From positions 620,001 through 684,000 of the forward strand of contig JAYKKR010000014.1 in the NCBI GenBank assembly GCA_036971615.1: a stretch of 64,000 bases of DNA, read 5' to 3'. A program made the translations under genes and the position numbers. Origin of the DNA: Amyloporia xantha (lineage: Eukaryota; Basidiomycota; Agaricomycetes; Polyporales; Adustoporiaceae). The notes below the pieces were generated by a model, which worked only from the letters and a program-made list of their open reading frames with translations, was not told the origin of the DNA and searched no databases. Below are positions 7,829 to 52,294 of the stretch, one piece after another (position 1 is the first letter of the stretch; each line of letters starts with the position of its first letter).

Positions 7829-7921
7829 GAGCCCATTCAGTCATTATAGCCTAATGACTAGGGAGAGATATGGGTGATATTTTACCTACAGTGTAAGGAG
7901 AGCGGACGTCGGCCGACGCCA
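7829..7921 (+). repeat. Copy A terminal inverted repeat, L end
   Basis: Starts GAGCCCATTCAGTC and ends in GGACGTCGGCCGACGCCA. It pairs with 24631-24723. The outermost 13 or so bases distinguish L ends (shared with 52282-52294 of copy B) from R ends (shared with 24711-24723, 5067-5079 and 34682-34694), so the two ends are not equivalent. Confidence 0.9.
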
Positions 7922-7928
7922 TAATATT

Positions 7929-8170
7929 GCCTGCACTGTAGCCTCGGCCAATGGTATAATATACTCTGGTGCGATGTGTCGGCCCACCGTGCCCTATTTT
8001 ACCGCTATATTTTTGCCTGCGCTGTAGCTTCAGCCAATGCTATAATATACTCTGGGGCGATGTGTCGGCCCACCGCGCCCTATTTTACCGCTATATTTTT
8101 GCCTGCGCTGTAGCTTCGGCCAACGCTATAATGTACCCTGTGGAGATGTGTCGGCCTACCGTGCCATAAT
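7929..8170 (+). repeat. Subterminal 86-bp tandem repeats, copy A L end
   Basis: Three units starting GCCTGC at 7929, 8015 and 8101, each with a CTGTAGC(C/T)TC(A/G)GCCAA segment, a TATAAT(A/G)TAC box and GATGTGTCGGCC. The period is 86 bp. The last unit is partial. Typical placement for transposase-binding or spacing sequence. Confidence 0.75.
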
Positions 8171-9928
8171 TTCATGCTTCATTGCACTACATCCTTGCCT
8201 TTCCTATGCATCATTTATCCTCCATTGCAATCTGCCATCAACTGTGCCATTTGTATGTATTTCAGAGAATATTTTTCTATTTGTCAGGTCATATATTACA
8301 TTGCGCTGTTGGCAAATATCGACAAAATAGAATGTACAGATGGCGCGCTTGCCATCAGCGTCGCTATGAGTGGCGCCCTTGTGAAACTCGTATTGGGTCA
8401 CATATTTCATGTACGGAGAGCTAAGGGCATTTGAACTGGATCTACCCGCCTACCAGCATCTAATACATATTCTCGCCCAAGACACGTGCAGAGACTGGGC
8501 CATCTGATATGTGTCCTTCAAAGGATCCAGCTGTCTGGACCCTCTGTGGGACACAGATCCAATGGCCATCTCCAGCGGCAGCATGCGCTATGGAACCATG
8601 GCGCCACCATGTCCAGACGCGCTATGCAACCATGCGCCACGTACCTTGCCTGCCACATTGTGAGGCGTATGGCACGCAGGCGTTATGATGTGCTGGCGCT
8701 GTTGGACTGGGCCATTTCATCCTTGCTGCCCTGGGTCAGCCAGAGGAATCGAATCGCCGTCCACGTTTTGAGAGTACCCCTGATGCTGATGGACAAATCA
8801 GCTGCATCCGGAGTACTCATGGCGCTGAGGGCAACTCGATTCCACTGGTGAACGTAGAGAGCAAGGAGTTAATGGGTTTATCCAACAGCGCCTTGCATGA
8901 ATGAGTCAGACTACAGACAGGAAGACTTGACTTATGTTCCTCCGAGCCACATACCTGTGGCTCAGAAGGACATAAGTCAAATGGGCCTTGTCCGGCGGCG
9001 ACGGGCGCCATCTGATGGCGAAGTGCATGTGCGCTCATGCTCGCTGTTGGGAGATGGCGCTATGGCTCGCCAGACAGGGCGCCTTCATCTATGCTCTTCA
9101 GAGCCGCTTACCTGTGGCTCTGAGGGCCACAGACTGAAGTTGCGCTGTCCGGCGGCGACGGGCGCCATCTGATGGCGCCGTGCATGCCGCGCTCATGCTC
9201 ACTGTTGGGAGATGGCGCTATGGCTCGCCAGACAGGGCGCCTTCATCTATGCTCTTCAGAGCCGCTTACCTGTGGCTCTGAAGGTCATAGAAGAAGGGGC
9301 CTCGTTCAGCGGCAATATGCGCCATCCGATGGCGCCGTGCATGGTGCGCGCAGGCGTGGCACATGGTACGCAGCCGGCATGATGTGCTCGCGTTCTGGAC
9401 CTGCACGATTCTTCAATGCTACCCTGGATCAAAGCATCTGAATCGAATCGCCATCCAACCGTTGTTGGATGGCCATCCGATTCAGCCGCTTGAATACCAA
9501 GGACATTCAAGGATCGGCTGGCGCAAAAGGACGTTATGCCTTCATGCTCTCACTGCGCAGATGCAACGAATACATACACCACCTGGTTTGAAACACCCAC
9601 CTTTGACATGGCGCGACGTCCAAAGAGCATGATTTGCTGGCGTCCTCGAGCTCGGCCATTCGTCAATGCTACCCGGAAGTTAAGCGTCTGAATCGCATCG
9701 CCATCCACATGATTGGATGGTAATGCGATTCAGCCACTTAAATTCGAGGTCCATTGGACAAATGGGAGACGCTGGGGACGTCATGCACTCGTGCTCATAC
9801 AGGGAGGGACAAGAAATACATACGCAACCAGACGAGACCCACCTGCGAGATGGCGCTAGGAGACAGTACCCCACACCTCATCTGGCAAAAGCACCTCCCT
9901 GTATCCATCCAAAATCCTGGAGATCTCG
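8171..9928. other. Non-coding hairpin-rich zone near L end, copy A
   Basis: About 1.75 kb without a convincing gene. It holds three inverted repeats of 40-50 bp at about 8933-8978, 9082-9130 and 9239-9290 (spacing about 155 bp), each with the loop context CC(A/G)C(A/T)TACCTGTGG, and two more palindromes at 9445-9487 and 9697-9732 built on GAATCGCATCGCCATCC-type arms. The equivalent zone in copy B is 49877-51830. It is dense in ATGGCG/CGCCAT hexamers. Confidence 0.6.
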
Positions 9929-10643
9929 TCATGCGTCTTGATGGCGGTTCTCGACAAAGCGTGTGGCGAGCTTCTCGACCTCTTCCAAACGACTGAGGAC
10001 TGCGCTCATGTCGCCGCAGTCAATCCGATAGGTGTCTCCGCGACGCTATCCAAATAGTAACACCAGGAATGTGTCAGCATGTCACAAACAACTAGAAGAG
10101 CGGGCACTCACTCTGTCAACCAGTGGACACTTCCACCACGATGGAAGGTTGCTGGGAGGGACATCAGGCCAAGTCCACCATGCAGGGTCAGTGTCCGTAT
10201 GGAGTTGCTGAAGCTGTGGCGATGGCGGCGCAGGAAGCGGTGTGTAAGGAAAGATATTCATGACGTCAATCCTGGAGATGGCGCCGAACGTGGTAGCGTC
10301 GACGATCTTCTGGACCACATCTGGCAGCTCGACGTCGGTGACGCCAACGAGTGCGAGGCGGCCAAGACAGTTGCGGATGGCGTCCTGTTGATGGCGTCCT
10401 GTTAGCCGTCAGTGCAGATGTATTGGTGTGACGATTTCGAAATGGTACCATTTCCATACGAAGCCCAATCTCCCACCTCGCCAACATGAGGTCGATTGCG
10501 ACATTGCTGGTTGGATTGGCGCAAGCGGTCCGCACCGTGGTGATAGCCTGTTCGCAGCGCCAGGAGTAGTACACGACAAGACGGCGATTGATAGCGATGA
10601 GGTTGGCGACGGATTCGGCGCGATTAGCAAAAGCGGGAGCCAT
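9929..10643 (-). CDS. KDZ cargo: small unknown protein (copy A)
   Basis: Three exons on the minus strand: 10643-10449, about 10384-10112 and 10045-9929. The same structure occurs in copy B (49122-49876), and the first exon is exactly 195 nt in both. The protein starts MAPAFANRAESVANLIAINR, has a helical first exon ending in WEIGLRMEM, then ALVGVTDVELPDVV and a Trp-rich WWTWPDVPPSNLPSWWK segment, and finishes with a helical RLEEVEKLATRF tail. I do not recognise a family. In copy A the last exon stops at RHQDA because of a small indel, about 20 residues earlier than in B, so A may be slightly truncated. It is divergent from the transposase across a 210-bp gap and may share a promoter with it. 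The donor of intron 1 is GTACCA. Confidence 0.6.
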
Positions 10644-10853
10644 TGTGATGTGGGTCGTGAATGGGTAAAAAAGCGTGATCTGCGGGCTGCATTTGAGCAG
10701 TGGATGGGGGATCGGGTGATCGCCTTGAGGGAAGGTCATGGCGAAGATCCGTCGCAGATAAGCATCGGCAAATTACCTGCAGATGATCGCGTGTATAAGA
10801 TCCGTTATTGATAAGACATCATGAGGAAGGGGCGTGAGAGTTTCTCATTCAGT
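10644..10853. promoter_or_regulatory. Divergent promoter, small gene / transposase (copy A)
   Basis: About 210 bp between the two divergent starts. The last 30 bases before the transposase ATG (GGGGCGTGAGAG and CATTCAG words) are shared with copy B (48910-48940, inverted), whereas much of the gap is diverged. No TATA box is obvious. Confidence 0.35.
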
Positions 10854-13800
10854 ATGAAAAGGAAGCTGTCATGGATCACAATAAGGCAATTGTCATCTGT
10901 CCGCGGTGATTCGGTCATGGCGCGCACCAAGAAGCAAGACGTCAGTGGCGATGCGATGTTCGTGCGGCGCAAAGAGCGGCGAACTGCAAGAGGCGCCGTA
11001 ACTTACGTTCCAGAAGAAATACCGATTCCACGCGCATCGCTGCAGGTCGCAGATGCCAGATCTCCATCAAAGTCCCCTCTAAAGCCGCGTCTCATGATCA
11101 ATATTCGGAGCCGCTGCAGGAACATGTGGTGTTCGACAATGTGATGCCGATGAGGAGTCTGCACAAGGTGAGCTCCGTCGCCATATTTGGGCTGTTCAAT
11201 GGGAAGGCTGAAAGCGAGCCAGTCGCAGAACGACTTTATGCGAGAATGGCTTCCTCTTCGAGAAGAGTACCTAAGCCACATCATCGAGCTAGAAGCGCCT
11301 CCTGGAGAGAGGCGATGCTGCAAATGCGCTGGTCCGCAAGGCGATTGGCGCTGCTTGGAATGCTTTGGGCGCCCCGTGTACTGCGCAGATTGCCTCCAAC
11401 TGACACATCGCCGAATGCCGCTGCATCGGGTGGAGAAGTGGGCTGACGGATTCTTCGAGCCAGCATGGCTTCGTGAGGTAGGGGTCGCAATGCATTTGGG
11501 CCACGATGGCGAACCATGTGTATACGCGGAGAGACCTATTATGGGGCAACACACCGGGGTAGAAGATGATGGCGAGGAAGATGATGTCAGCGATGCCGGG
11601 GATAACGATGGCGATGAAGGGTCGGCGCCACCCGACGCGCCATCGCCGCCCAGCTACTACAGCAATGACACGATGACCATAGTCGATGTAACCGGCATCC
11701 ATAAACTTGATGTTGTGTGGTGTCAGTGCGAGAATCGGGCTACCCCTGATGTACAGCTACTGGACATGGGGCTGTATCCTGGAAGTACCAAGCGACCACG
11801 CACTGCGTTCACATTTCGGGTGTTGGATGACTTTTTGCTCACCAACAAGGAATGCAAAACCTCGGGGATGAATTACTACAGCAAGCTTCGGCGCGTTACC
11901 AACTCTGCGTTCCCGCATTCAGTTCAGGTAGGTCGCCATTGTCATATCATTGTGTGTTTGCGTTCACAAGGGCATAGGATCGCTACAGGGAACTCCTGCG
12001 AGTGTCGCGCCAGTGGCGAAACCTCAAACATCGCAAATGGCATGGATATGGCCATGGCGCCACCAACGCCATACCCGCCGGTGGCCTCGCTTTGGCGTGC
12101 CCAGCATGTCCCAAGCCTGGCGTTAATCTCGCCGCAGGATGGCGTGATGACCCTGTACAGTAAGCCATGTAAGACTTTCCTTGAGCGCCATGTGTAACGC
12201 GACAGCAGATGGAAGTACATGAGGAGCATCGTAATGGACGGCAACTTTAGCGCGGAGCATCTCAAGATGCGTCGCCCAGAGGATGACGTCATTCTCAGCG
12301 ATGGCGACGCTTTCATGGTGGGCGACGACACCTACAAGAAGCATCTCGCTGTCGCCATCGAGCATAAAGAGGTCCGCGATCGACTCCTAGTGGATGAACT
12401 GTTGGACGCTCATAGCCTATGTAGAAATCCTTCTGTCACGATCATCGCGCCGTCAACCAGGCGAATGCAGATCGCCATAACCTTGAAGCCATGGGGATTG
12501 GCGCCGCGGCCTGTGCGCGCCATGGGTTTTTCATGCCGCATGCGGTGGTTGATTTCCAGAAAGGCGAGAGGTATGTGTTAGTTTTCCCATTCATGTGGCT
12601 CGCTTATACCCGCCATTAGACAGATGAACATGGATTACGCGTTGAGCGAGGTGCTCGCCACCATGGCGGGTATCCAGGTGCTGCTGGTGATGTACGACAT
12701 CATGTGTCAATACGGCATCAATCTCATGAAGCGGTTTGGGGAGAGTGAGTATTTGCACATGCCGCCGAACGTGGAGATACGGCGCGGAATAGGCCTGTTT
12801 CATGTCCACGGCCATCAAGACACATGCTTTCCTCGCTACTCACCCAACTTCATTCCCGGTGCTGGTCAGATTGATGGCGAAGTGATTGAAACCCTTTGGG
12901 CGCCGTTGAATCTCATTTCGGGTAGCACACGCGGCATGACCACGGCACATAGAAAGGAAGTCATCGATGATCACATGAATGATTCCAACTGGAAGAAGCT
13001 CACAGGTATTGGTAGGTGGTCATCGCGATAGGTAAATGCGGAGACATTCATCGCCATCCGACAGCGGCCACACATGTTAGAAAGTGGCGCAAGGCCAAAA
13101 CTGGGGCTACTGAGAGCGCACAAGTTTTGGAGTATATGGAGCGGTCCAGCACAGAAGAGCAGCTGCAAGAGTGGCGGGATGCAGAAGCCGAAGCGCTGGC
13201 CATGCGCACAGAGACCATCAGCGCCATGGACATTTTTGACGTCAAAATGAAGAAGGGTGAGAAATAACATTTGGCTCAACGTTGATGAGTACTCAATATA
13301 AACAGCGCCTAGCCGAATGGCCATCCAACTCCAGCTGACCCAAAAGGAGACTACACAAGGGCGCCATCAGGGGGTGGCTGCATGGATCGCTACTGGAATG
13401 AAGATCCAAGAGCTGCAGTAAGTCTACACAGCGTGCTATAGTCACTTGAATCTCACAGAACATTGACAGATTGGGGATTAGCCAGCTCAAGCGCAAGATG
13501 GGGCGCCATCCGCTGCTGGTCGACCGCCTTACGCTAGAGGAGCGGCGCCAACAACTTCACAAGAGAATAGCGGCATTTCAATCGAAAGCTACATCCTATC
13601 TACCAGTCCTCTTTGAGGATGACCGCGACACTCCTGGAATCACTTACGATGGCGCAGAATGGGATGCGCTGGAAGAAGACGTCAATCCGTTGGAGGAAAT
13701 GTTTCCCGGGGAAGTGGAATCAGGAATACAACCTGAGAACGCCATTATATCGTTGCCTTCACAGCTTGGCTATGACGTCATCTTGGCCACTAACCTGGAG

Positions 13801-14490
13801 GACATAGCGGCTGAGGAGCTAAGCTTGCGAGTGGGTCAAGCCAACGACGCGCTTCATCAGATTCGCCTCGCCATCGGCTACAAGTCAGTGCTGTTTCGGA
13901 CAGCGGTGCGCCATGCGAAAAGCCAACACCAAAAGCTCAGGTCTTGGGATGAAGTGATAGCGACACAACGAACCGTGTTGGAAAACGTACGCATATACAC
14001 TCAAAGCAGGCTTGCCATCCTTGCCCTCAATCCCGACGACCATATCCGGGCACGGTTCCAAGCCATCCAACACGTGGATCTCAAAGCCATCACCGCCATG
14101 CTAGATAACTCGATTCGTGGGTCCCGGCAGGAGACGCTATCTTGAATATGGACCGTGGACATTGAAGGTGATACTGCGCAATCGAATTGGTTGACAGAGT
14201 GTGAGTGACATGTCCACGTCTGATTGGCATGGCGTCCTGATTTACATGGACAAGTACATCGCGTGAACTGGTTACACGCCAAATCTCGGAAAGACAGATG
14301 GGCCGAGGACTTGGTTATGGTCCAGGCGGAGATGGAGTGGACAGTGGCCAGCTTTCACCACAAGGCGGACGAATGGCGCTCGCGTCTGATCGGGCCTCCT
14401 GGCCATATATGCTACGCGCGCCGTCAGGTGGCGCTCTGGACTGGGATGGCGGATCATGCCGCTGCTCACTTCGCCAAGTGTGAGGCGTGA
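10854..14490 (+). pseudogene. CxC2-KDZ transposase (copy A), damaged
   Basis: The KDZ transposase that should mobilise the element. Exons as I read them: 10854-11167, 11229-11927, 11978-12159, 12209-12389, 12425-12570, 12620-13005, 13065-13256, 13306-13417, 13470 to about 14200, and about 14253-14490. The N-terminal half is the CxC2 cysteine cluster of KDZ proteins: RRCCKCAG, WRCLECFGRPVYCADC, THRRMPLHRVEKWADGFF, TIVDVTGIHKLD. The catalytic core has MDGNFSAEHL, CPACPKPGVNL, CHDHRAVNQANADRHNLEA, VMYDIMCQYGINL, VHGHQDTCFPRYSPNFIPG and DGEVIETLWAPLN, the expected acidic signature. Damage relative to copy B: one C missing near 11075 (frameshift before the cysteine cluster) and TGG to TGA at 14143-14145. 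The start is taken at MKRKLSWIT because that 21-residue extension is conserved in both copies; MARTKKQ at 10917 is the alternative. Confidence 0.88.
12209..13000 (+). other. Transposase core tract nearly identical in A and B
   Basis: Exons 4-6 of the transposase differ from copy B (47553-46770) at only a handful of bases, and the 128 residues of exon 6 are identical. Neighbouring exons are only about 80 percent identical in protein. The short intron at 12571-12619 inside the tract is clearly diverged. Confidence 0.7.
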
Positions 14491-14535
14491 TCGGTGATAT
14501 GTACTGAGATAGTATTTGTTGTTACACTTATAACT

Positions 14536-15841
14536 CTAAAAAAAACCCCACTCCATCCAATGAGGTGCCTTTATGTTCATCGATGCATGCACCGAATCTC
14601 TCATGAAGTAAGCATAGCATACGCGCTCACCATTGCATGGCTGAACGCCATGCCGTAGAAGCTTTCCACACAATGCCACAACACTGCCAGGCCTGTAGTC
14701 TATCATCACATTGGGCCCGTCGAGCTCCATCTCTAATGGGCCATAATTACCCACCGTAGTCAGCAGATCGAACCACTCTTTTCTGGAGTTCTTGTCGCGA
14801 TGTAGCGGAGTGGCGCGATTGCTTATGACTTGAACGCCGTTGAATATGGACGACCACTTGTTCACTATATCTTTGTGGTCCAGGCCACACGACAGTGTCC
14901 TAATGCATGTGCGACCCGCGGCGTAAAGGTCGGGATGCATGATAGACATCATAGCAGAGAGGATGGCCGCTGAATCACGGATGGCGCTCAACCACCGCCA
15001 TCCACTCTCGCCATCCCGGCCGCGCAAGCTGGTTGAAGGTTCCACAGGATCGCAAGGGCCCTACCGATATGCGCCGCGATCAGCGACGCAGTGCAGTCAC
15101 AACCAACGTGACCTACGGTATGTCCAAGGGCATGCCATCCTGGAGACAGATTGACCGTCCCTAGGGGGATAGCGCACTCTGATGGACGGCGGAAGTATTT
15201 AGCGTCGTTTCTCCAATTTCCTCCGCATGCTTTGCGCATGAGCTGCGTGGATAGGTGGGTCGTCGCTGTGCGTATTTCCCTCTGCAGCCATTCCACAATG
15301 AGTATCTCGAAAGGAGGAAGGGTGGACAGGCCCACCTGACGATCGGCGTGAAGCAGTCCAGGAAGGATCCACGCTAGTATTCTTGAGTGCTGGTCCACCA
15401 ACACACAGGGTTCATCGAGTACCACAGTCTTATCTTCAACTAGAGGCTTCCACCTCGCCTTCAGTTGTTCCTCCAGTCTCACATTCTGCCCTGTGTTGCC
15501 CACCCCTATGGAGTCGGAATAGCGATTAATATCCCATGCCAAGCGTACTAGCTTGACGGTCAGTGTGATGCCTCAGGGCTCACTAGCACTCACAATGACG
15601 CACCAGGTCTGATATAGGCTTGAGTGAGCTGGTGAGCGATATCACTGCATTCTATGACAAAGTCTGCCCGGACATGAGTAGGAGGCTGTGGTTGCCTCAG
15701 TGGGCCTGGATCGTCCCGCAGCTTGTGCAGCCAATACTGAAACATATCTCGCATACAGGCCACCAATGTGTCGCTCAAGTCGAGGCCGCTGGGTGATATC
15801 ATGGCAAGGAATATGAGGGTATCTTGCCATGCACTCCCCAT
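14536..15841 (-). CDS. TET/JBP-family 2OG-Fe(II) dioxygenase (copy A)
   Basis: Four exons on the minus strand: 15841-15604, 15547-15336, 15281-15117 and 15060-14536, about 379 residues, all open. The enzyme family oxidises 5-methylcytosine (TET) or thymine (JBP) in DNA using 2-oxoglutarate and Fe(II). Visible in the last exon are the iron-binding HxD as PLHRDKNS, followed by WFDLLTTVG, the DYRPGSVVALCGK strand pair, the distal histidine in LLRHGV and the 2OG-contacting arginine region in GERVCYAYFMRDSV. Earlier exons hold GVGNTGQNV, VLDEPCVLVDQHSRILAW and TVNLSPGWHALGHT. KDZ transposons carrying TET/JBP genes are known from Agaricomycetes, which supports the call. It is convergent with the transposase (45 bp between stops) and divergent from the HMG gene. 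Unlike the transposase of the same copy it shows no break. Which base it oxidises cannot be read from sequence. Confidence 0.88.
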
Positions 15842-16283
15842 TGTATATTACTAGCAGGACCTAACGCCTGTCGACCATGCTGCAACAGCATTGTCTACTG
15901 CTGTTACGACTGCACGCATGTTTGTCGATCGCTTCCCTTCTTGATCGCAAGGGCCTGAAGGATCTCGCGCGGCCGATCGGCATTGTGTGATCCGGTGATC
16001 GCCTACCATTGTTGATCTGCGGACCGCCATCCCCGAGGATGCCGCCATCATGCCGCCTGAGCTGCCACCGTGCTTCCCAAGCAAGCCGTAGGCATGCCGC
16101 GGGTGAATTCCCCGGGATTTCTGCTTTCAGCGAGCGCGATCAGGTTGAGCGACAGCCATCAGCGGAGTCGGAGCACGGAAGCAAAGTAGTGCAAGGAGAC
16201 AGACATGGCTTTGGCGACCTCCTCTGAACAGTGCTGAGGTGTCCATCTTCCTCAACACATCTGGAAATTCTGTGGGCTACGAC
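15842..16283. promoter_or_regulatory. Divergent promoter TET/JBP - HMG gene, with conserved block
   Basis: This 442-bp gap separates two divergent cargo genes. A 30-bp block at 15972-16001 matches copy B (43766-43795, inverted) at 27 of 30 positions. It contains the perfect palindrome GCCGATCGGC and a second half GTGATCCGGTGATCG. The flanking sequence is much less alike between copies. A candidate shared operator or activator site. There is no clear TATA box. Confidence 0.5.
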
Positions 16284-18990
16284 ATGGGATTATCCATCAT
16301 TCAGGCATATCTAGACAAGATCCCTGATCAAATAGAGGAATGGCGACACGCACAAGGAACAGCGAGAGCACCCATCCTTGAGTCCGCCATCACGATTCTC
16401 ATGGAACATTTCTCGGAGCTGGAGGATAGGGCTGTACTGAAAAAGGTCAAATCTTGTGTTATCTCGAAGCATGGTCATCATGATTCACAGCTTCCCATAG
16501 GTACTGGGTACCTATTTCAGCAACCACTTCCGGACTTTCCTTGCCAAATCCACCCGCCCTCCCAAGAAGAAACGGTCGACGAGGGAGATGTTTCAGGCGG
16601 AAAAGAGTGCGATGATAAGACAAGTGACAGATGAAAGGACAAATGGAGCAGGAGTGTCGAACAAAGACATAGGGATATACACCTCCGTCGTCACTGAGCT
16701 CTTTGGCCAACTCAGCGATGAGGCCAAGGCGAAATATCAGGAGAAGGCAGATCTGTTCAATGAGAATGCCAAGCAGTTGAAGGCGGGATCATCAAAGTGA
16801 GTGTTGGCAGTTTGCGCTCTTAGGAAATGACTGACAGTGACCAAGAAAAGCGGACAAGGAGCTGATTCCATTTTTGAGGGATTTTGCGTATGATGTCTAC
16901 CGGCGCCATGGGGTGAGGATCTTCACACTGAGCAGCTACAAAAACGAAAAAGGAAGGGTGGTGATACAGGAGTAGGAACTTGTCGCATGCATGTTGACAT
17001 TTGCGCTAACAGCCTCTTATAGACATGACTTCAATGACGAGATGGAGGGAGGAAGCGCCTTTTGCAAGGTGGACGACTGGCACACCGACACCATGGTGAA
17101 ATGGGCCAAGTACAGCACTCAAGCATTTGAGCTTGATTTCAACGGTAGTGTAGATGAGCCACAGGCAACATCCGGTGACACATATCGGGAGCTGCCACTC
17201 GACGATGGCGGCTTACCGTTGATACCGCCATTGGATGGCGACAACCCGCCATCATTGGGCGCGATGAAGTCCATGATTCGGGAGTTTCTCACCATTCACT
17301 ATAGTACGTGATAATGCACATGGCGCTCATGGCGAGACTGATGGCGCACATATTAGAGCGGGCAGCGGGGAACAACCGGGAGAAATGCCCATGGCGCGCG
17401 CTAAAGGTCCGCGGTTCACAATTCATCGATTCAGGAATGGTGCCCGCCGACTTTGAGTTTGATGACCCATCGCACATGGTCCGGAGGGACATAGTCAGCG
17501 TGCTTCGACATTGGAGAGCCGCCCAAGAAGCCAACAAAGGCCAGTGCACCTTTCGCTTTAAGGCGTGCCTGAAAACGCGTGGTGACGAGAACTCTCAACT
17601 TATTCCTGCACTCTATAATGAGCCGAAAGTGGGCAAGGGAAAGACGGTGGCGAGGAAGAAGCAGACAAATGCTCAAAAGAAGAAGGGAAAGGCCAAAGTT
17701 GCCAAACCCACCGCAACTGATGACAGTAGTAGTATGGATGAGGACAGCTCGTCGGAAGGGGAGGTGTTCAAATTTGGCGACACAACAACAGATGATGATG
17801 ACATGGACAGTGCCAATGGCGCTGCGCCAAGTTGGGCATCGCGATCGTGCACACGGCGTCAGGAATGGCTGCGGATGGCGGCGCCATCCACGGATTTTCG
17901 CCTCATCGTGGATGAGCTACCACGCCTTATGGTAATGCCCACATTTACCAATCAAATCTGTCGCTAACCGGTGTGACAATAGAGAGGACTGAAGGAAACA
18001 AGGCATTCACCAGACGGTTTCAGCTGGGGCTCCTGGGATTACTCGCACAAGCATCTGTCCTTTATGGTTCATGGGAAAGCAGACGGCATCAACCCTGCGT
18101 TAGAATGGCTCGACTCCAAACCCTATCTGAATAAGTCCGGAAAGCTTACAGACGATGTCGCCATCATTGAGCAAGTGCTCCTTGTCATCGCCATGATACA
18201 CAGAGATCTTACAGCGGCACAATTTGCATTTGGAGATCCAGATGGACCGCCATTAGACATACCCGACCATGTCGCGACAAGTCAGATTCCTTTTACAGTT
18301 ATCGGGGAGCGGCTAGATCCACACATCGCACGACTGCGCTCCATGATCAAGCTCACCAAGCCTGTGGTAGCCACAGGAGGTCGTAAAGATACCAATCCAG
18401 TGACAACTGCTCATGCCCAAGTGGACAGCACGCGCAAACCCATTGGAGGACCGCCACTCCCGTTGCAAGCAAGGCCGCCAGTGGCAAACATTCCTGGTTC
18501 AAATGCAGACTCCAACCAGATACGGGAAACAAAGGTAACCCCACATAAACCTGTCCGAAATCTGCCATCAGGACCGCCTCCCCCACTTCGCCCAAAGCCA
18601 CCCCACTTACAAGGGCCACGTGCTGTAGGACTGCGCCATACGCCACAGGCACCTGCAGCATTGGCCCGACGGCCACCACCACCAGGAACACCGCCCCAGC
18701 CAGGCCCATCCCGCAATGTCTATGCCTACGGTCCAGCAGCGCCAGATAGTTCGGACGGCCCAGATTTATCGTACAGCTCACCGATCCCTGACAGCTTCCC
18801 AGGTGGCAAGCACCGTCTTCCCCACATTCCCCTCTTCAAGAAGCCACTGCACACAAACCATCTCAAATCATCCAAGGAGAACATTCCTTCCAGGATTCTT
18901 GCGCCATCGGCCAGACGCCCGGTGATGGTCCCACAGCCGCCATCGCCATCTCCACCGCGCGCCATCCTTAGATGGCGATTCATTACCTGA
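16284..18990 (+). CDS. KDZ cargo: HMG-box-like chromatin protein (copy A)
   Basis: Multi-exon gene on the plus strand. Exon 1 (16284 to about 16449) encodes MGLSIIQAYLDKIPDQIEEW and a helical segment. The next exon (about 16521-16798) carries a basic stretch RPPKKKRSTREMFQ and an HMG-box-like helix set (SNKDIGIYTSVVTELFGQL, then KAKYQEKADLFNENAKQL), the fold used to bend DNA. Later exons hold KELIPFLRDFAYDVYRRHGV, YRHDFNDEMEGG, DDWHTDTMVKWAKYSTQAF and HMVRRDIVSVLRHWRAAQEA, then a Lys-rich and acidic linker, DGFSWGSWDYSHKHL, and a proline-rich tail ending at 18990. The start was chosen to match the MGIAILQAYLDKIPEQ start of copy B; an in-frame ATG at 16239 is possible. Known: HMG-box proteins bind DNA non-specifically or weakly specifically. 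Inferred: it helps the neighbouring TET/JBP enzyme reach chromatin. Junction to the following frame at 19037 is unresolved; they may be one gene. Confidence 0.65.
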
Positions 18991-19036
18991 TCGCTCACAC
19001 ATTCGGAGGTCACAAACACCAATCAGGAGACAAGTG

Positions 19037-19867: not shown

Positions 19868-20057
19868 GATATATCCCGTGTAGCTATGTCATTACAGAAT
19901 GAGATGGCGCAGAGTAGTACTGCGCCGTGCAATCTTCATTGGCCAGAGTTAAGTTATAGATGCATGCGTATATTATTGGGAGACGTAATTGAAATACATG
20001 GCGACGTAACACGAAGTAAGCAAGTATGAAGATGGCGAGATGGAACGGATGGCGCCA

Positions 20058-36986: not shown

Positions 36987-37232
36987 GGTTGAAAGCAAGG
37001 CGGAAGGAATGCGGAAACGTGCCAAGTTCGTCTAGAGGCATCTAATATACCCATGAGCGCAACACGTGCGGTGCCGATCGAACGGGCGCGGATCTTTCCG
37101 CCAGGCGCCCGCCATCAACCAACGCGATGCACCGCGTGGGTCTGACTTCGTCTCTTCTTCTACCACCACCACCACCACCACCACCGCCATCACCACAGCT
37201 GTCAAATCCCATCTCGCTTTGCTTCTACCACC

Positions 37233-40004: not shown

Positions 40005-40226
40005 ATAATTCTTTTGTAACTTCGCTGTACTTTCAAACGAATGCATTGTGTACACTCTCCAGCGACCAGTAAGATTGAGAGTGCGATGACGGCAACACCC
40101 TCGGCATCACAGTGAGCCACAGGGGCTTGCACAGGGAGCGGCACGCTATCGCCATCCTTCGCAGCGCTGAGTTCAATCATCGCCATTGAATTTAAATGCG
40201 AGGTAGTGTACATGAGAAATAGTATT

Positions 40227-40774: not shown

Positions 40775-40796
40775 ACTCCCGCGGCGGACAGTTGCG

Positions 40797-43501: not shown

Positions 43502-43951
43502 GGCGAGGACAACAAGCAGACCGAGATGCTCTCAGGATGACAGACACTTGGGCACTCCCAACTGAACATTTGCCCAGACGTGTCTGACCTCCGGTGATAC
43601 TTTCGTCCTGTTCTAACCCCGCTGATCTCTCTTACACTGCAAGCGTCCATGTCGGGGCAGACCCGACCGGCATCCCTCCGGCAGAGCGCGGCATCTCCCA
43701 GGCCGAGGCCCCGGCGTAATGGCGCCGTGGTCGAGAATCGCGGTCCACATGCCAATGACGCGCCTCGATCACCGGATCACGCCTTGCCGATCGGCTGGGC
43801 CTGATCTTGCCGGCGCTTGCTCAACGATGTGATCGACCAAACAAGTGTGCAAAGCTAATGGACATGCTGTTGCAGCATGGTCAGTAGATGGCAGATTGAG
43901 CAATAATGCGAGATGGGGCGTGTATCTCCATCCATCTCCTGTCTGTAAGCC
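43502..43951. promoter_or_regulatory. Divergent promoter HMG - TET/JBP, conserved block (copy B)
   Basis: A 450-bp gap holding the 30-bp block at 43766-43795 that matches 15972-16001 of copy A (inverted, 27 of 30). It includes the palindrome GCCGATCGGC. The remainder shows only scattered similarity to copy A. Confidence 0.5.
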
Positions 43952-45217
43952 ATGATAGCGGGCAGCGGCTTGGAGCTCAGCGACACATTGGCAGCTTGCA
44001 TGCGCGATATGTTTCAGTTTTGGCTACACAAGCTTCGGAATGCAGCCGGACAACCGAGAAACCCACAGCCTCCCACACATATCCGCGCCGATATCGTCGT
44101 CGAATGCAGCCAGATCGCGCACCAGCTCGCAAAGGCATATATCAAACCTGGTGTGTACTCTTGGATGCTGTGGGCATCTACTCATTCTGCGCTGACCGGG
44201 AAGTAGTGCGCTTATCCTGGGACATTGACCGGTATTCTGATGCTATAGGCGTGGGCAACACCGGACAGAACGTGAATCTGGAGGCGCAGCTCAAGACTAA
44301 ATGGCCGCCTCTCCTCCCAGACACCACCGTGGTTCTAGATGAACCCTGCGTGCTCCTCGACCAGCACTCGCGCATCCTAGCATGGGTGCTTCCGGGCGTC
44401 CTTCATGTGAATCGCCAGGTGGGCTCATTCATCTTCTGCCATGCACCGCGCTCACTACGCTATGTCGGCAGAGGGAGATACAATTGGCGACGGCCCACCT
44501 ATCAACACAACTGATGCGTAAAGCCCCGGGGGTCAGTTGGCGAAACCATGAAGCATATTTCCGCGATCGATCAACCTGCACCACACCTCCGGGGACTGTC
44601 AATCTGTCTCCAGGATGGCACACGCTGGGTCACACGGTACGTTGACGATCCGTTAACTCTGATGACTGGCGAATGACGGCGCATACATCCAGGGCCCATT
44701 GGACCCAATGCTGCCTTCGGCGAGCTTACGCGATCAAGATGGCCAGAGTGGATGGCGATGGTTGACCGCCATCCGTGAATCCGCCGCCATCCTATCCGCC
44801 ATGATGTCCGTCATGCATCCCGACCTGTATGCTGCGGGACATACGTGCATGGAGTCGCTTCTTGGCGAAGTGGAGTATCCCGCAATAGTAAGTGCTTGGT
44901 CTTCGATCTTCAATGGCGTTCAGGTCATCAGCAATCGCAAGACGCCGCTACACCGCGATAAAAACTCGCGCAAGCAGTGGTTCGACCTTCTCACCACAGT
45001 AGGGAGCTACGGCGCATTGGAAATGCAGCTGAATGGTCCAAATATCGCTATAGACTACAAGGCGGGTAGCGTAGTTGCGCTTTGCGGAAAGCTTCTGCGC
45101 CATGGCGTTCAGAGATGCGATGGAGAGCGCATATGCTACGCTTATTTTATGAGGGACTCAGTGCACGCCGCGATGAATGTCAAGGCACCGCACTGGATGG
45201 AGTGGACTTATGGTTGA
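43952..45217 (+). CDS. TET/JBP-family 2OG-Fe(II) dioxygenase (copy B)
   Basis: Exons 43952-44150, 44204-44418, 44472-44636 and 44693-45217, about 367 residues, all open. Exons 3 and 4 have exactly the same lengths as in copy A (165 and 525 nt). Iron ligands: HRD at about residues 280-282 (TPLHRDKNSRKQWF) and the distal His near 330 (KLLRHGVQ); the Arg-containing strand GERICYAYFMRDSV follows near 339-347. Other conserved pieces: GVGNTGQNVNLEAQLK, VVLDEPCVLLDQHSRIL, TVNLSPGWHTLGHT, SAMMSVMHPDLYAAG. The N-terminus starts at MIAGSGLELSDTL; the 12 or so residues that precede this in copy A are interrupted here by a stop, so the protein is slightly shorter. Family reaction: oxidation of a methyl group on a DNA base. 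It lies 65 bp from the convergent transposase stop. Confidence 0.88.
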
Positions 45218-45282
45218 ATACACAGATCTGTATTTGTGTTGTCTATGTTTGTGTATCTAGTAGGGTCGTGAATGGCGAACCA

Positions 45283-48200
45283 TCACACACATGTATTAAA
45301 GCGAGAAGCGGCATGCTCCGCCATGCGCGTCCACAGCGAGACCTGACGGCGCGCATAGCATACGTGACCTGGAGTCCCATAGAGGCGGGAGCGCCATACG
45401 TTCGCCTTGTTATGGAAGCTCGCCTGCGTCCACGCCATCTCTGCCGTGACCATGACAAACTCCTCCGCCCACCTATCCTTACGTGATTTTGCACGGAACC
45501 AGTTGACATGATGCACTGGCGCTCTGCAGTCAGCATTGCGGGCATTGGACGGACCACAAGCGCACTCACACTCCGTCAACCAGTTGGACTGCGTTGAATC
45601 GCCCTCGATGTCTACGGTCCATATCCAGGACAACTTGTCCTGCCGTGTTCCTCGGATGGAGTTGTCCAGCAGCGCGGTGATCGCCTTGAGGTCATCATGT
45701 TGAATGGCACGGAAGCGCGCTTTGATGGCATCAGTTGGATTCAGAGCGAGGATGGCGTGGCGGCTTTGACTGTAAATGCGCACGTTCTCTAGCACCGCCC
45801 TCTGCGTGGAGATGACCTCGTCCCAGGACCGGAGCTTTTGGCGCTGGCTCTTTGCATGACGAACCGCCGTACGAAACAGCACTGACTTGTAACCAATGGC
45901 GAGGCGAATCTGATGAAGGGCGTCATTGGCCTGCCCAATGCGCAAACTCAACTCCTCCGAAGCGATGTCCTCTAAACCGCTGGCCACGACAACATCGTAG
46001 CCAAGCTGCGATGGAAGCGAAATGATGGCGCTCTCAGGCTGGATTCCAGAATCGATCTCACCGGTGTAAATCTCATCAAGAGGATTGACATCTTCCTCCA
46101 GTGCATCCCATTCAGACCCGTCATAAGCCTCTGCGGCGCCATTCCCATCGGGCTCGGCCACAAGTGGAACATACGAAGCCGCTTTGGACTCGAATGTCAC
46201 TATACGCTTCTGAAGGCGCTGACGGCGCTCCTCCAGCGCAAGGCGGTCCGCCACCAGCGGATGTCGGCCCATCTTCCGTTTCAGTTGGCTAATGACCAAC
46301 CTAAGACCTGTTGTGAGCTTGGCACCCGATGTTCAATGACGCTACCTACTGCAATTCCTGAATCTTCATGCCCGTGGCTATCCATGCAGCTACGCCCTGA
46401 TGGCGATGTTGCGATGTTTCCGTTTGCGTTAGTTGAAGTTGGATCTGCATCCGGGTGGGTGCTGCGCCACATCATTACTCATGGCCGTACCCTATACTGT
46501 GAACTCTCACCCTTTCTCATCTGCACGTCAAAGACATCCATCGCGCTGATTTTAGCGTCACGCATGGCGAGCGCCTCGCCCTCAGCGGCTCGCCACTCTC
46601 CTAGCTGCTCCTCCGTGCTCGATCTCTCAATGAACTCCAACACGTCCCCGCTCTCCATGGCGCCGGCTTTGGCCTTTCGCCATTTCCTAACAAGGGTGTT
46701 CGCTGTTGAAACCACAGTCAATCAACCTTTCCACCAATGTCAAGGTTGGCCCACCCATCCCGGTCAACTTCTTCCAATTGGAATCATTCATGTGATCGTC
46801 AATGACTTCCTTTCTATGTGCTGTGGTCATGCCGCGTGTGCTACCCGAAATGAGATTCAACGGCGCCCAAAGGGTTTCAATCACTTCGCCATCAATCTGA
46901 CCAGCACCGGGAATGAAGTTGGGTGAGTAGCGAGGAAAGCATGTGTCTTGATGGCCGTGGACATGAAACAGGCCTATTCCGCGCCGTATCTCCACGTTCG
47001 GCGGCATGTGCAAATACTCACTCTCCCCAAACCGCTTCATGAGATTGATGCCGTATTGACACATGATGTCGTACATCACCAGCAGCACCTGGATACCCGC
47101 CATGGTGGCGAGGACCTCGCTCAGCGCGTAATCCATGTTCATCTGTCTGATGGCGGGTGTAAGTGAACAAAGGAAATAGCAAACCACTTACCTCTCGCCT
47201 TTCTGGAAATCAACCACCGCATGCGGCATGAAAAACCCATGGCGCGCACAGGCCGCGGCACCAATCCCCGTGGCTTCAAGGTTATGGCGATCTGCATTCG
47301 CCTGGTTGACGGCGCGATGATCGTGACAGAAGGATTTCTACATAGGCTATGAGCGTCCAACGGTTCATCCACTAGGAGTCGATCACGGACCTCTTTATGC
47401 TCGATGGCGACAGCGAGATGCTTCTTGTAGGTGTTGTCGCCCACCATGAAAGCGTCGCCATCGCTGAGAATGACGTCGTCCTCTGGGCGACGCATCTTGA
47501 GATGCTCCGCGCTAAAGTTGCCGTCCATTACGATGCTCCTCATGTACTTCCATCTGCTATCGCGTTACACATGCCGCCCAAAAACGTCTTACATGGCTCA
47601 CTGTACGGGGTCATCACGCCATCCGGAAGCGAGATTCACGCCAGGCTTGGGACATGCCGGGCACCCCAAAGCGAGGCCACCAGCTGGTATCGCGTTGGAG
47701 GCGCCATGACCATATCCATGCCATTTGCGGTATTTGAGGTTTCGCCATTGCCGGGACACCCGCAGAAGCTCTCTGTAACGGTTCTAGCCCCTTCTCAACG
47801 GCGAAAACAGCTTCATATGCACATAGCGGCTTACCTGCACTGAATGCGGGAACGCGGAGTTTGTGACACGTCGAAGCTTGCTGTAGTAATTCATCCCCGA
47901 GGTTTTGCACTCCTTGTTGGTAAGCAAAAAATCATCCAACACCCGAAATGTGAACGCAGTGCGTGGCCGCTTGGTGCTCCCAGGATAGAGGCCCATGTCC
48001 AATAGTTGCAGGTCTCGAGTGAGCCTGTTATCGCAACGACACCACACAACGTCCAGGCTATGCATCCCCGTAACATCTACAATGGTCAAAGTGTCAAACG
48101 CGTAGTGACTTCGCGGCGCCGTCGAGTCCGCTTTGATTGGCTCTTCATCCTCTTCATTGTCCCCGGCGTCACTCACGTCGTCGTCTTCGCCATCGCTATC

Positions 48201-48909
48201 AGCATCCCCATCCAGCGGCGTGATCGGGGACTCCGCATCCACACATGGTTCGCCATCATGCCCGAGATGCATCCGCACCCCAACCTCCCGAAGCCACGCC
48301 GGTTCGAAGAACCCATCCGCCCACTTCTCCACCCGATGCAGCAGCATGCGGCGATGCGTCAACTGCAGGCAGTCCTCGCAATACACGGGGCGCCCAAAGC
48401 ATTCCAAGCAGCGCCAATCGCCATGCGCATCAGCGCATTTGCTGCATCGTCTCTCACCTGGTGGAGCTTCTAGCTCGATGATGTGGCTTAGATACACATC
48501 GCGAAGTGGAAGCCATTCGCGCATAAAGTCGTTCTGCGACTGCCCCGCCTTCGGCGTTGACATTGAGCGACCCAAATAAGGCGACGGTACTCACCTTGTG
48601 CAGACTCTTCATCGGCATCACATCGTCAAACACCACATGCTCCTGCACGGGCTCGCAATATGCATCATGAGACGCGGCTTTAGAGGGGGATTTCGACGGC
48701 GATCTTGATGCGCTTGTCGGCACATGCGCACGCGGTAGCGGTGCTTCCTTGGGAACGTATGTGACGGCGCCTCTTGCAGTTCGCCGTTCTTCGCGACGCA
48801 CGAACACCGCATCGCCACTGACATGTTGCTTCTTCGTGCGGGCCATGGCCGTATCACTGCGGACAGATGACAATTGGCTTATTGTGATCCATGACAGCTT
48901 CCTTTTCAT
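45283..48909 (-). CDS. CxC2-KDZ transposase (copy B), apparently intact
   Basis: Minus strand from MKRKLSWIT at 48909 (or MARTKKQH at 48846) to the stop at 45283, with about ten exons matching copy A. The CxC2 cluster reads RRCSKCAD, WRCLECFGRPVYCEDC, THRRMLLHRVEKWADGFF and TIVDVTGMHSLD. The core reads CPACPKPGVNL, MDGNFSAEHL, CHDHRAVNQANADRHNLEA, VMYDIMCQYGINL, HGHQDTCFPRYSPNF and DGEVIETLWAPLN. The C-terminal part has VRKWRKAKAGAMES, WDALEEDVNPLDE, AIGYKSVLFRTAVRHAKS and a last exon ending HAASRFNTCV. I found no stop or frameshift in the exons I could join; the weakest point is the acceptor before the ISQLKRKMG exon, which does not join cleanly as read. If expressed, this copy could supply transposase to A, C and itself. 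Confidence 0.85.
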
Positions 48910-49121
48910 ACTGAATGGCGATCTCTCACGCCCCTGCCTCCTGATCCCTTATCAACAACGGATCATATCCACGCGATCACCTTCAGATACTTGGCCGATG
49001 CTTATCTCCGACGGATCTTCGCCATGACCTTCCCTCGAGGCGATCACCCGATCCACCATCGACTCCTCAAATTCGCCTTGCATTTCGCCTTGGCCTACCA
49101 ACCCATTCACCCCACGGCGCA
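48910..49121. promoter_or_regulatory. Divergent promoter, transposase / small gene (copy B)
   Basis: A 212-bp gap between the divergent starts. The side next to the transposase keeps the GGGGCGTGAGAG and CATTCAG words of copy A. No TATA box. Confidence 0.35.
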
Positions 49122-49876
49122 ATGGCTCTCGCCTTGAAGAATCGCGAACAGTCCCTCTCCAGCCTCATCGCTATCAACCGCCGACTGATCTCATACTATG
49201 CCTGGCGCTGCGAGCAGGCGCTAGCGACCATCATGTCTGTCGCCGCCGGTAGAGACAAGGTGGCTGGCTTCGACATCACCTTGGCGCGGTGGGAGATTGG
49301 CCTCCGCATGGAAATGGTAAGCTTCGCCTTCCCCAACGTGTCTGCTCTGACGCTCAGCAGGAAGCCCTTCGCGACTGCCTTGGCCGCCTCGCCCTCGTCG
49401 GCGTCACCGACGTCGAGCTCCCCGACGTCGTCCGCAAGATCAGCGACGCCACCGTCTTTGGGGCCGTCCCACAGATCCACGTCCTCGAGATACAGCCGTT
49501 CACGCCGCTCGCCTCGCCGCCATCCTTGCAGCTACAGAAGCTGCACACAGAAACCGAGCCCGTGTGGTGGACTTGGCCAGACGACCCTCCCAGTCACCTT
49601 CCAGCATGGTGGAAGTATCCACTGCATGACAGAGTAAGTCGCCACCCCACTCCCACCTTTTCAACACATTCATTCACATAAATTGCATCGATTGCCGCAT
49701 AGCGTCGCGGCGATACCTATCAAGTCAACTACCGCGATATGAGAGCGGTCAGCCATCGATTGGATGACGTCGAACGCCTGGTCACCCGCTTCGCCGAGAG
49801 CCGCCATCGCGATGCCGGCGACCTCACAAGGATGTTGGACGCCTTCAAAGAGGTGCTGTTGCCAGATGAGGAGTGA
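49122..49876 (+). CDS. KDZ cargo: small unknown protein (copy B)
   Basis: Exons 49122-49316, 49358-49633 and 49703-49876, all joining in phase 0, give 214 residues. It starts MALALKNREQSLSSLIAINR, with WEIGLRMEM at the first junction, ALVGVTDVELPDVV, a Trp-rich WWTWPDDPPSHLPAWWK segment, and a helical tail RLDDVERLVTRFAES ending KEVLLPDEE. Copy A lost the last 20 or so residues by an indel. No family recognised. The conserved exon structure in two diverged copies shows it is a real gene and has been kept under some constraint. Its place beside the transposase, reading outward to the L end, suggests a role in transposition or its control, but nothing in the sequence shows which. Confidence 0.7.
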
Positions 49877-51835
49877 GACCGGGTCTCTGCGCGCCATGTC
49901 GTAGGTGGATCTCGCCGTCGTCTGTATGTATTTCTTGTCGCTGCCTTTATGAGCACGAGTGCATGACGTCCCCAGCGTCTCCCATTTGTCCAATGGACCT
50001 TGTAACTAAGCGGCTGAATCACATTACCATCCAATCATGTGGATGGCGATGCGATTCAGACACTTAACTTCGGGGTAGCATTGACGAATGGCCGAGCTCG
50101 AGGACGCCAGCAAATCATGCTCTTTGGACATCGCGCCATGTCAAAGGTGGGTGTTTTCAGGTGGCGTATGTATCCGTTTCGTCTGCGCGGTGAGTGCATA
50201 AATGCATGACGTCCTTCTGCGCCAGCCAATTCTTCAATGGTCTTGGTATTCAAGCGGCTGAATCGGATGGCCATCCAACAATGGTTGGATGGCGATTCGA
50301 TTCAGATGCTTTGATCCAGGGTAGCATTGAAGAATCATGCAGGTCGAGAACGCCAGCACATCACGCCGGCTGCGCACCATGTGCCTCGCCTGCGCGCGCC
50401 ATGCACGGCGCGATCGGATGGCGCATATTGCCGCTGAACGAGGCGGCTTCATCTATGACCTTCAGAGCCACAGGTATGCGGCTCTGAAGAGCATAGATGA
50501 AGGCGCCCTGTCTGGCGAGCCATAGCGCCATCCCACGGTGAGCATGAGCGCGCCATGCATGGCGCCATCGGATGGCGCCCATCGCCGCCGGACAGCGCAA
50601 CTTCCATATGTGGCCCTCCGAGCCGCAGGTATGCTGCTCCGAGTGACACAGAGGAAGGCGCCCTGTCTGGCCAGCGATAGCTCCATCTCCCAACAGCGAG
50701 CATCAGCGCGCATGCACTTCGCCATCGGATGGCGCCCGTTTCCGCCGGACAAGGCCCATTTGACTTATGTCCTTCTGAGCCACAGGTATGCGGCTCGGAG
50801 GAACATAAGTCAGGTCTTCCTGTCTGGAGTCTGACTCTCTAACGTGAGTTTCAAATTTATGGTCTGCATGGATGCGGGATTCATGCATGGCGCTGTTGGA
50901 TAAACCCATTAACTCCTTGCTCTCTACGTTCAAACAGTGGAATCGAGTTGCCCTCCGCGCCATGAGTACTCCAGATGCAGCTGAATTGTCCATCAGCATC
51001 GGGGTACTCTCAAAACGTGGACGGTGATTCGATTCCTCTGGCTGACCCAGGGCAGCAAGGATGAAATGGCCCAGTCCAAGAGCCCCAGCACATCATAACA
51101 CCTGCTGGCGCCCGTCGCCGCCGGCAAGTCTTCCTGTCTGGAGTCGGACTCTCTAACGTGAGTTTCAAAGTTATGGTCTGCATGGATGCGGGATTCATGC
51201 AAGGCGCTGTTGGATAAAGCCATTAACTCCTTGCTCTCTACGTTCACCAGTGGAATCGAGTTGCCCTCCACGCCATGAGTACTCCGGATGCAGCTGAATT
51301 GTCCATCAGCATCAGGGGTACTCTCAAAACGTGGACGGTGATTCGATTCCTCTGGGTGACCCAGGGTAGCAAGGATGAAATGGCCCCGTCCAACAGTGCC
51401 AGCACATCATAACACCTGCGTGCCATACGCCTCACAATGTGGCAGGCAAGGTATGTGGCGCATGGTTGCATAGCGCATCTGGACATGGTGGCGCCATGAT
51501 TCCATAGCGCATGCTGCCGCTGGAGATGGCCATTGGATCTGTGTCCCACAGAGGGTCCAGACAGCTGGATCCTTTGAAGGACACATATCAGATGGCCCTG
51601 TCTCTGCGCGTGTCTTGGGTGGGGTGTATGGAGCCGTCGGAAATGGCCAATCAGACCTTGCGCTTTGAATTGTAGTCACACCACTGACCTGACCACACAC
51701 GAAACATCGTGATGAATGACAGATTGCAAAGCCTAATGGATGGCGAGGCATTATTATTATTATACATACAGCATGAGATTTATTGAAATGCATATAATTA
51801 AAGCGTAGAAAAGGAAACAATAGGGCGGAATATAC
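49877..51835. other. Non-coding hairpin-rich zone near L end, copy B
   Basis: About 1.96 kb without a convincing gene. Hairpins with CCACAGGTATGCGGCTC-type arms lie near 50460-50505, 50610-50660 and 50768-50815, matching those of copy A. Palindromes with GAATCGGATGGCCATCC-type arms lie near 50020-50060 and 50258-50305. A roughly 310-bp direct duplication (about 50822-51062 and 51133-51370) is present only in this copy, and an ATT microsatellite lies at 51751-51762. Dense in ATGGCG/CGCCAT. Confidence 0.6.
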
Positions 51836-52201
51836 TACTTCAAGGCGAGAATATACCACGATAATATGGCGCAGTCGGCCGCGCCGTATCTAAAGGCTAT
51901 ATTATAGCCCTCGGCCGACACTACTTGCAGGCGAGAATATACCACAGAAATATGGCGCAGTCGGCCGTGCCATATCTAAAGGCTATATTATAGCCCTCGG
52001 CCGACACTACTTGAAGGCGAGAATATACCACGATAATATGGCGCACTCGGCCGCGCCGTATCTAAAGGCTATATTATACCCTCTCGGCCGACGCTACTTG
52101 AAGGCGAGAATATACCAGGGAAATATGGCGCACTCGGCCGCGCCGTATCTACAGGCTATATTATACCCTCTCGGCCGACCCTGCACTGCAGGCTATAGCG
52201 A
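51836..52201 (-). repeat. Subterminal 86-bp tandem repeats, copy B L end
   Basis: Four units, with GGCGAGAATATACC at 51845, 51930, 52016 and 52103 (period 86-87 bp), each also holding an AAATATGGCGCA(C/G)TCGGCC segment and a CTATATTATA box. They are followed by the terminal repeat. Confidence 0.78.
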
Positions 52202-52294
52202 TGGCGTCGGCCGACGTCCGCTCTCCTTACTAAGTAATAAAAATTTCACCCATATCTCTCCCTATAGAGTAGGCTATAATGACTGAATGGGCTC
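52202..52294 (-). repeat. Copy B terminal inverted repeat, L end
   Basis: Starts TGGCGTCGGCCGACGTCC and ends ATGACTGAATGGGCTC, sharing the L-specific outer bases with 7829-7841 of copy A. Confidence 0.9.

Follow-up and report, generated by a model that had tools for sequence, protein, structure and literature searches.

In Ac/Ds and CACTA transposons, a repeated short subterminal word is bound by an element protein and is confined to the ends of the element. The described system closest to the one considered here is the anti-silencing of Arabidopsis VANDAL transposons, for which we draw on excerpts of the published accounts (PMC5735166, PMC10398659). As the excerpts have it, VANC proteins bind short family-specific motifs and remove methylation, and these motifs lie in non-coding tandem repeats, exon probes being bound poorly (PMC5735166). 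A second point of reference is the TET+ Kyakuja transposons of the KDZ group in mushrooms. According to excerpts of their description, no TET occurs in retrotransposons, and the mushroom TETs are supposed to act without target specificity (Kojima 2025, PMC12730594, section 4.2). A private DNA word together with a gene for its reader would, if our reading is true, answer how a transposon-encoded demethylating enzyme could favour its own family. Here we describe a 64-kb window of the Amyloporia xantha genome (G000:C6:620001-684000; 46.8 Mb in 60 contigs; positions below are those of the window unless a contig is named) in which two KDZ transposons carrying a TET/JBP dioxygenase gene, element A (7829-24723, plus strand) and element B (34682-52294, minus strand), are saturated with the hexamer ATGGCG/CGCCAT. 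The 3' part of a Gypsy long terminal repeat (LTR) retrotransposon (52295-58630, plus strand) is saturated with a second hexamer, AGACCG/CGGTCT. The transposable elements of the window, KDZ with TET/JBP, and the kinds of gene in it would by themselves point to a mushroom-forming basidiomycete or a near relative.

These elements resemble the VANDAL/VANC system, as the excerpts portray it, in having a short family-specific motif with many copies per element, a motif that differs between related families, and a reader that would be element-encoded, which is proven there and inferred here. Unlike the VANDAL motifs in the same excerpts, the words run through open reading frames (ORFs) and are not restricted to non-coding repeats. 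The candidate reader is also of another kind, a Zn2Cys6-type protein found with TET in the KDZ elements, and the design recurs in a retrotransposon. Among the ORFs scanned with Pfam there were KDZ and Gypsy proteins and no Mutator-like element (MULE) match that would point to a MULE transposase with VANC. With TET+ Kyakuja the elements share a KDZ transposase and a TET/JBP dioxygenase, and A is flanked by a 7-bp target-site duplication, GAACGAT (7822-7828 on the left, 24724-24730 on the right), as described for that group. Unlike in that account, there is a dispersed hexamer and a zinc-cluster-like gene, neither of them mentioned in the excerpts of PMC12730594, whose main text has "zinc" 0 times and "HMG" 0 times. 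Kyakuja termini read 5'-CA..TG-3' and lack terminal inverted repeats. A and B have inverted terminal sequence of ~190 bp and ~380 bp, respectively, beginning ~4 bp inside, and the ends of B read CACACC...GGGCTC; because the termini differ, we use the name KDZ+TET instead of Kyakuja. The word runs end to end in A and B, unlike the subterminal words of Ac/Ds and CACTA. The Gypsy element is like chromodomain retrotransposons of the Ty3/Gypsy group in its gag-pol order, chromodomain, LTRs, TG...CA ends and 5-bp duplication (the last two seen in the copy on contig C58), and unlike other Ty3/Gypsy elements in its AGACCG saturation and its antisense zinc-cluster-like gene. In the literature searched we found no report of whole-element private words running through coding DNA in two transposable element (TE) classes with zinc-cluster genes, and dispersed private words were not found in the excerpts of PMC8889193 or PMC13297926.

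Saturation of three elements by two words

An earlier note on this window, made from its letters, had proposed that KDZ elements are saturated with ATGGCG, and its hand counts were exact (11 in 17161-17940, 7 in 44701-45180 and 7 in 24731-34681). Over their full lengths A holds 127 sites and B 110. These 237 sites in 34,515 bp compare with 32.6 expected from a dinucleotide Markov model and 59.6 from a trinucleotide model, under which the excess has P ~3e-42 in A and ~4e-28 in B. When all hexamers in A and B were counted, as the note had suggested, ATGGCG was the most over-represented by dinucleotide z-score. The remainder of the window has 10 sites vs 11.3 expected. Our host sample of 200 kb, made up of 20 loci on contig C1 at 10 kb each, contains 124 sites, or 6.2 per 10 kb, with a range of 1-12 over the loci, whereas A has ~75 and B ~62 per 10 kb, 10-12 times the host rate. 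The note had allowed that the word might prove equally frequent in host genes or explicable by composition; in this host sample and under these models it is neither. ATGGCG also came out first each time in A (z 14.2, 14.2 and 16.9) and in B (z 11.7, 8.8 and 13.0). Host windows of 5 kb, 40 in all, gave a median z of 5.05 for their top hexamer, and one exceeded 7 (AATAAA, z 13.0).

The saturation stops at the element borders, which had been placed correctly: the outermost sites lie 88 bp inside all four ends, and the four 1-kb flanks hold 1, 0, 0 and 0 sites. Over 13 counted parts of A and B the density is 3.7-9.6 per kb and is not confined to the ends; in the region of B gene 3, ATGGCG is scarcer (4.2 per kb) and A[AC]GGCG is abundant. 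Orientation is balanced (66 plus and 61 minus in A, 55 and 55 in B). Sites occur in and outside ORFs, and those in ORFs, when pooled, cover three frames and both strands, in line with the note. Minisatellites bear 22 of the 127 sites in A and 22 of the 110 in B, leaving 105 and 88 beyond tandem arrays. We also shuffled synonymous codons within each ORF 2000 times for ORFs of our choosing (seven KDZ, four Gypsy). Observed counts over shuffle means were 10/3.0, 6/1.2, 7/2.6 and 9/1.2 for the A ORFs and 3/0.9, 7/2.7 and 7/2.1 for the B ORFs, with P of 0.04 for the ORF with three sites and <=0.004 for the other six of seven. The note's view that neither a repeated peptide nor codon bias explains the word therefore stands. 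Genome-wide, the cluster ATGGCG-CGCCAT-ATGGCG (gaps <=25) occurs 30 times and its reversed control 0 times; 29 of the 30 lie within ~11 kb of A-family copies, which are near identical and hence not independent, the exception being C1:3493118.

Saturation was seen in A, B and B-family copies, among them a fragment at 3575-5080 (98.6% identical to the B end, 13 ATGGCG); as a claim on KDZ elements in general it is too wide. Ten KDZ transposase loci of 2 kb each were picked among the matches listed (174 in total). One of them (L036) is a B-family copy with 15 ATGGCG (z 9.3), and the other nine have no saturated hexamer, with a best z of 6.4. Of the 87 TET hits entered, not one belongs to any of these nine: one locus, at C34:236991, lies 11 kb from a TET hit and is read as nested in a B copy, and the remaining ones are at least 45 kb from a TET hit or have none on their contig.

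The claim was at the same time too narrow, since the Gypsy retrotransposon, which the note missed, has a word of its own. Outside A and B the window contains 69 AGACCG vs 14.9 expected, and 58 of these fall between 52.4 and 58.5 kb, in the Gypsy element. Its recognizable parts are an RNase H-integrase region (52303-54120, plus strand), a chromodomain (PF00385; 54719-55012, plus strand) and a 3' LTR (57583-58630, plus strand), which matches the 5' LTR of the copy on C58 at 99.6% identity. This C58 copy is complete, ~11.6 kb long, with LTRs of 1,050 bp that are 99.7% identical, and by eye it has TG...CA ends and a 5-bp duplication. Among the Gypsy copies in which AGACCG was counted (L025-L030), the C58 copy has 99 vs 5.9 expected from the host and only 4 ATGGCG, and L029, which represents a second subfamily with 80% identity over 5.7 kb, has 41 vs 2.9. 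In the codon test, Gypsy ORFs gave 11/1.6, 7/0.7, 3/0.1 and 11/2.1, two of the four ORFs sharing 170 bp, and 0 of 2000 shuffles reached the count in each. Neither word was in excess in a control ORF (58751-62653) of an unsaturated Gypsy (3/2.9 and 0/1.2). The words are element-specific: cross counts of ATGGCG and AGACCG are at or below background, and the word switches at the element borders. Across ORFs, ends and LTRs, sites of the words are maintained on average every 107-160 bp. Even spacing is absent in A, in B and in the full C58 Gypsy (coefficient of variation, CV, 0.89), and only the Gypsy part in the window is even (CV 0.63, with 0 of 2000 simulations as even).

To assess conservation, we compared motif hexamer columns with flanking hexamers in alignments of two pairs, A with B (75% identical over 10.5 kb) and the two Gypsy subfamilies. 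Between A and B, 0.446 of the motif hexamers (92 columns) were fully identical vs 0.322 for flanks (column-identity P=5e-4), with 41 columns common to both and 51 holding the word in one copy only. For the Gypsy pair the figures were 0.577 (52 columns, 30 common) vs 0.253 (P=2e-5). Density is thus maintained as individual sites are gained and lost. The variants of each word are informative as well. A has 127 ATGGCG, 21 AAGGCG and 20 ACGGCG, and B has 110, 59 and 42. In the Gypsy, AAACCG is raised 13-fold and ATACCG 6-fold over the host and ACACCG is not raised; position 2 is thus G, A or T and not C, and the preceding base is C in 1%. Both ATGGCG and AGACCG contain one CpG. Such variants behave as the degenerate sites of a DNA-binding protein would. 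Given this behaviour, conservation above flanks and a candidate zinc-cluster reader gene in each element, the note's suggestion of a factor that recognises the element itself at the DNA level is better supported than before.

Zinc-cluster-like genes and TET/JBP dioxygenases

Each saturated element has a gene with a Zn2Cys6-type cysteine cluster. In A this is gene 3 (20061-22959, minus strand; cluster 21743-21832) and in B its counterpart (37146-40004, plus strand; cluster 38355-38447), in both cases followed by a coiled-coil-like region recognized by eye. In the Gypsy it is an antisense ORF (56728-56988, minus strand; cluster 56836-56928) followed by a second antisense ORF (56291-56653, minus strand) that is basic and, by eye, coiled-coil-like. 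A six-frame search with the pattern C..C.{4,9}C.{4,12}C..C.{5,9}C, which was formulated after the clusters had been seen, gave three matches in the window, one per saturated element; neither the 200-kb host sample nor 20 shuffled versions of the window gave a match. The pattern was likewise absent from the read parts of the nine unsaturated KDZ loci and of two Gypsy loci (L042 and L043), and from the window's unsaturated Gypsy. The cysteine spacings, 2-6-8-2-6 in A, 2-6-9-2-6 in B and C-x2-C-x7-C-x8-C-x2-C-x6-C in the Gypsy, all three agree with the Zn2Cys6 spacing C-x2-C-x6/7-C-x8/9-C-x2-C-x6-C, and CxxRKxxCS at the fifth and sixth cysteines is common to all three clusters. For each of them the best Pfam match was Zn_clus (PF00172), with E 0.0015 (Gypsy), 0.0039 (B) and 0.029 (A), and the nearest solved chain to the B gene 3 ORF was the Pho7 zinc-cluster domain (E 0.023). 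The A and B proteins are 48% identical in the cluster region. When the genome was searched with the Gypsy cluster, 16 of 17 matches lay in copies of the saturated Gypsy, in both subfamilies. Searches of the protein database found a single relative of B gene 3, located on a 1.5-kb contig, and seven TET relatives; for the ORF of A gene 3 there was none.

The TET/JBP genes lie at 14539-15572 in A (minus strand; PF12851 E 4e-17 in 14539-15060) and 43900-45214 in B (plus strand; E 6e-17 in 44666-45214). Both matches exceed the Pfam cut-off, and all nine aligned sequences keep the HxD motif and the distal H. In either element an upstream ORF (14991-15572 in A, 43900-44511 in B) without a Pfam match was joined to the TET gene by eye. 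Gene 3 was found at 101 genome places, of which 100 were entered: 52 of the B family, 11 of the A family (44-48% identical) and 37 others (31-35%). Of these, 86 stand within 15 kb of one of the 87 TET/JBP hits entered, vs at most ~5.6% expected at random, and 35 of the 37 divergent copies stand beside TET hits of other families. Some KDZ+TET elements have a gene 3 homologue on each side of the transposase (C22:169519 and C22:185151 around C22:176-178k; C41:167288 and C41:182916). Further KDZ+TET families with gene 3 lie near C19:182-192k, C41:167-183k and C51:114-124k.

A proposed self-label and its rivals

We propose that each saturated element encodes a Zn2Cys6-type protein that binds the element's hexamer from end to end and works against silencing, in the KDZ elements together with TET, a reading to which we assign a probability of roughly 0.48. 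The hexamers would be private DNA labels, ATGGCG for the KDZ lineage of A and B and AGACCG for the Gypsy lineage, and the zinc-cluster protein would coat the whole of its element and only that element, marking it as self. For the KDZ elements, the probable role of the reader is to recruit the TET/JBP dioxygenase that they themselves encode, or to keep methylation off, along the full length, so that CpG silencing would be undone; in the Gypsy, where no TET was found, the cluster protein alone may be an activator or anti-silencer. We take the zinc-cluster protein as the candidate reader because it is the one gene type found in all three saturated elements and beside none of the nine unsaturated KDZ loci except the nested one, because both words hold G/C-rich cores typical of the targets of such proteins, and because the readers of A and B accompany a tighter and a looser word, respectively. 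Zn2Cys6 proteins contact CGG-like triplets.

A wider reading, which we offer as tentative, is that unrelated mushroom TE classes each gained a Zn2Cys6-type reader and rewrote their whole sequence, coding parts included, to hold a private CpG-containing hexamer at intervals of 100-160 bp. The result would be a code of self and non-self across the genome, with every family painting and de-silencing no copies but its own and with reader and word co-evolving, the reader of B tolerating AAGGCG and ACGGCG and that of A not. If true, selection for being recognised as DNA can rewrite coding sequence, in a DNA transposon as well as in a retrotransposon, element-wide hexamer saturation adjoining a zinc-cluster gene becomes a search route, and six-base readers might become sequence-specific epigenome tools.

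Several results weigh against these readings. The Zn_clus scores of 19.0 (Gypsy), 17.7 (B) and 14.9 bits (A) are under the Pfam cut-off of 21 bits, and two structure models were of low confidence (predicted local distance difference test, pLDDT, 49 and 60), too weak to be used for judging the fold. In the search of solved structures the best matches were a uridylate kinase for A (E 0.26) and a BIRC7 chain for the Gypsy (E 0.5), neither of them a zinc cluster. No TET hit lies within the Gypsy copies, and recruitment of TET therefore cannot be the common function. The longest stretch free of ATGGCG runs from 15009 to 16025 in A (1016 bp) and from 37614 to 39050 in B (1436 bp). Alternating AGACCG clusters occur at nine genome places, none of them in Gypsy copies, and the reversed control at six. 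The idea of a separate word for every family is drawn from two words. Conservation was compared for two pairs only, and in a plain ranking without local control other words were kept equally well, ATGGCG standing at the 95th percentile of 160 and AGACCG at the 86th percentile of 22, where the higher-ranked words overlap AGACCG. Among copies more than 98% identical, motif columns changed as often as the rest and fewer mutations were not seen, which is as expected if copies drift after insertion.

An alternative reader is the transposase or another element protein, for instance the product of the HMG-like gene 2, with the hexamers serving as transposase or packing sites. Ac- and CACTA-type transposases do bind repeated short sites, and both KDZ elements encode transposase domains: a CxC2 cysteine cluster (PF18803; 11172-12194, plus strand, in A; 47787-48590, minus strand, in B) and a KDZ transposase core (PF18758), located by family search at 12603-12989 in A (plus strand; C6:632603-632989) and 46777-47340 in B (minus strand; C6:666777-667340). 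Gene 2 of A (16149-19867, plus strand, by eye) is basic, and the basic second gene of B has an HMG-box-like stretch (42990-43355, minus strand; PF09011 E 0.011, under the cut-off). We consider this alternative unlikely: the sites span the whole element and not its ends, none of the nine other transposase loci of the KDZ type is saturated with a hexamer, and the Gypsy, which has no transposase, is left unexplained.

Quite unlikely, in our estimate, is that the density arose without any reader, from mutation and turnover such as slippage, local duplication or biased conversion spreading one word. The minisatellite-borne sites, a CTTCGA-rich stretch elsewhere that looks slippage-made and the 51 of 92 aligned A/B columns that hold the word in one copy only all fit such a process. 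It does not account for most sites lying beyond arrays in differing surroundings, on both strands and in all ORF frames, for their conservation above flanks, or for the switch of word at the borders. To much the same degree improbable is that a host protein reads the words and that the elements have accumulated binding sites for an activator or chromatin factor of the host. Two Gypsy subfamilies 80% identical do have one word in common; host DNA is not enriched, though, two element classes have two words, each element has its own zinc-cluster-like gene, and if the reader were a silencer of the host, sites would tend to be lost.

We judge it very unlikely that the words are labels without anti-silencing, with a reader that would bring copies together in pairs or clusters, guide integration or replication, or only activate transcription. 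The lack of TET hits inside Gypsy copies and the presence of a chromodomain would suit such a role; in the KDZ lineage, however, the zinc-cluster gene accompanies TET. Finally, an artefact of base composition, codon use or a reader's selection can be dismissed for practical purposes, since the over-representation of the overlapping word GATGGC in A and B is its one attraction and the Markov, codon-shuffle and host counts, with the array counts for tandem repeats, rule these causes out.

Neighbouring and related sequences

In B no matching 7-bp duplication was found, the flanks 34675-34681 and 52295-52301 being unlike. The neighbours of B are also unlike, with DNA that does not look TE-derived on the left and the truncated Gypsy on the right, as after recombination between copies. 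L022:8824-10000 resembles the sequence surrounding A but lacks the insertion, an empty site; a B-family copy (L022:1-4277) terminates in the same repeat. A has 0 AGACCG vs 5-8 expected (P 0.005), and B has 7.

The saturated Gypsy sits inside another, unsaturated Gypsy (58.6-62.6 kb, minus strand). Its ORF 55137-56072 (312 aa), between pol and the 3' LTR, matched nothing in Pfam, and the C58 copy has it in split form. Gypsy loci L042 and L043 (1.3-1.4 kb) showed no saturated word. CTTCGA was rejected as a third word: it forms a strand-biased local stretch, with 24 copies in 1.5 kb (L026 flank) and 7 in the adjacent 1.6 kb, and showed no whole-element spread. This stretch (C34:467187-468836; L041, L026) adjoins an AGACCG Gypsy copy and is interrupted, by eye, by a small inverted-end element. 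Seven of the nine AGACCG-CGGTCT-AGACCG places (C12:3173742, C24:402540, C27:186336, C27:219527, C37:215439, C39:195551 and C59:199430) are each 48 bp long and lie outside Gypsy copies; they are perhaps one repeat. In another B-family copy, a 2.2-kb insertion (L024:1023-3248) is 96% its own reverse complement.

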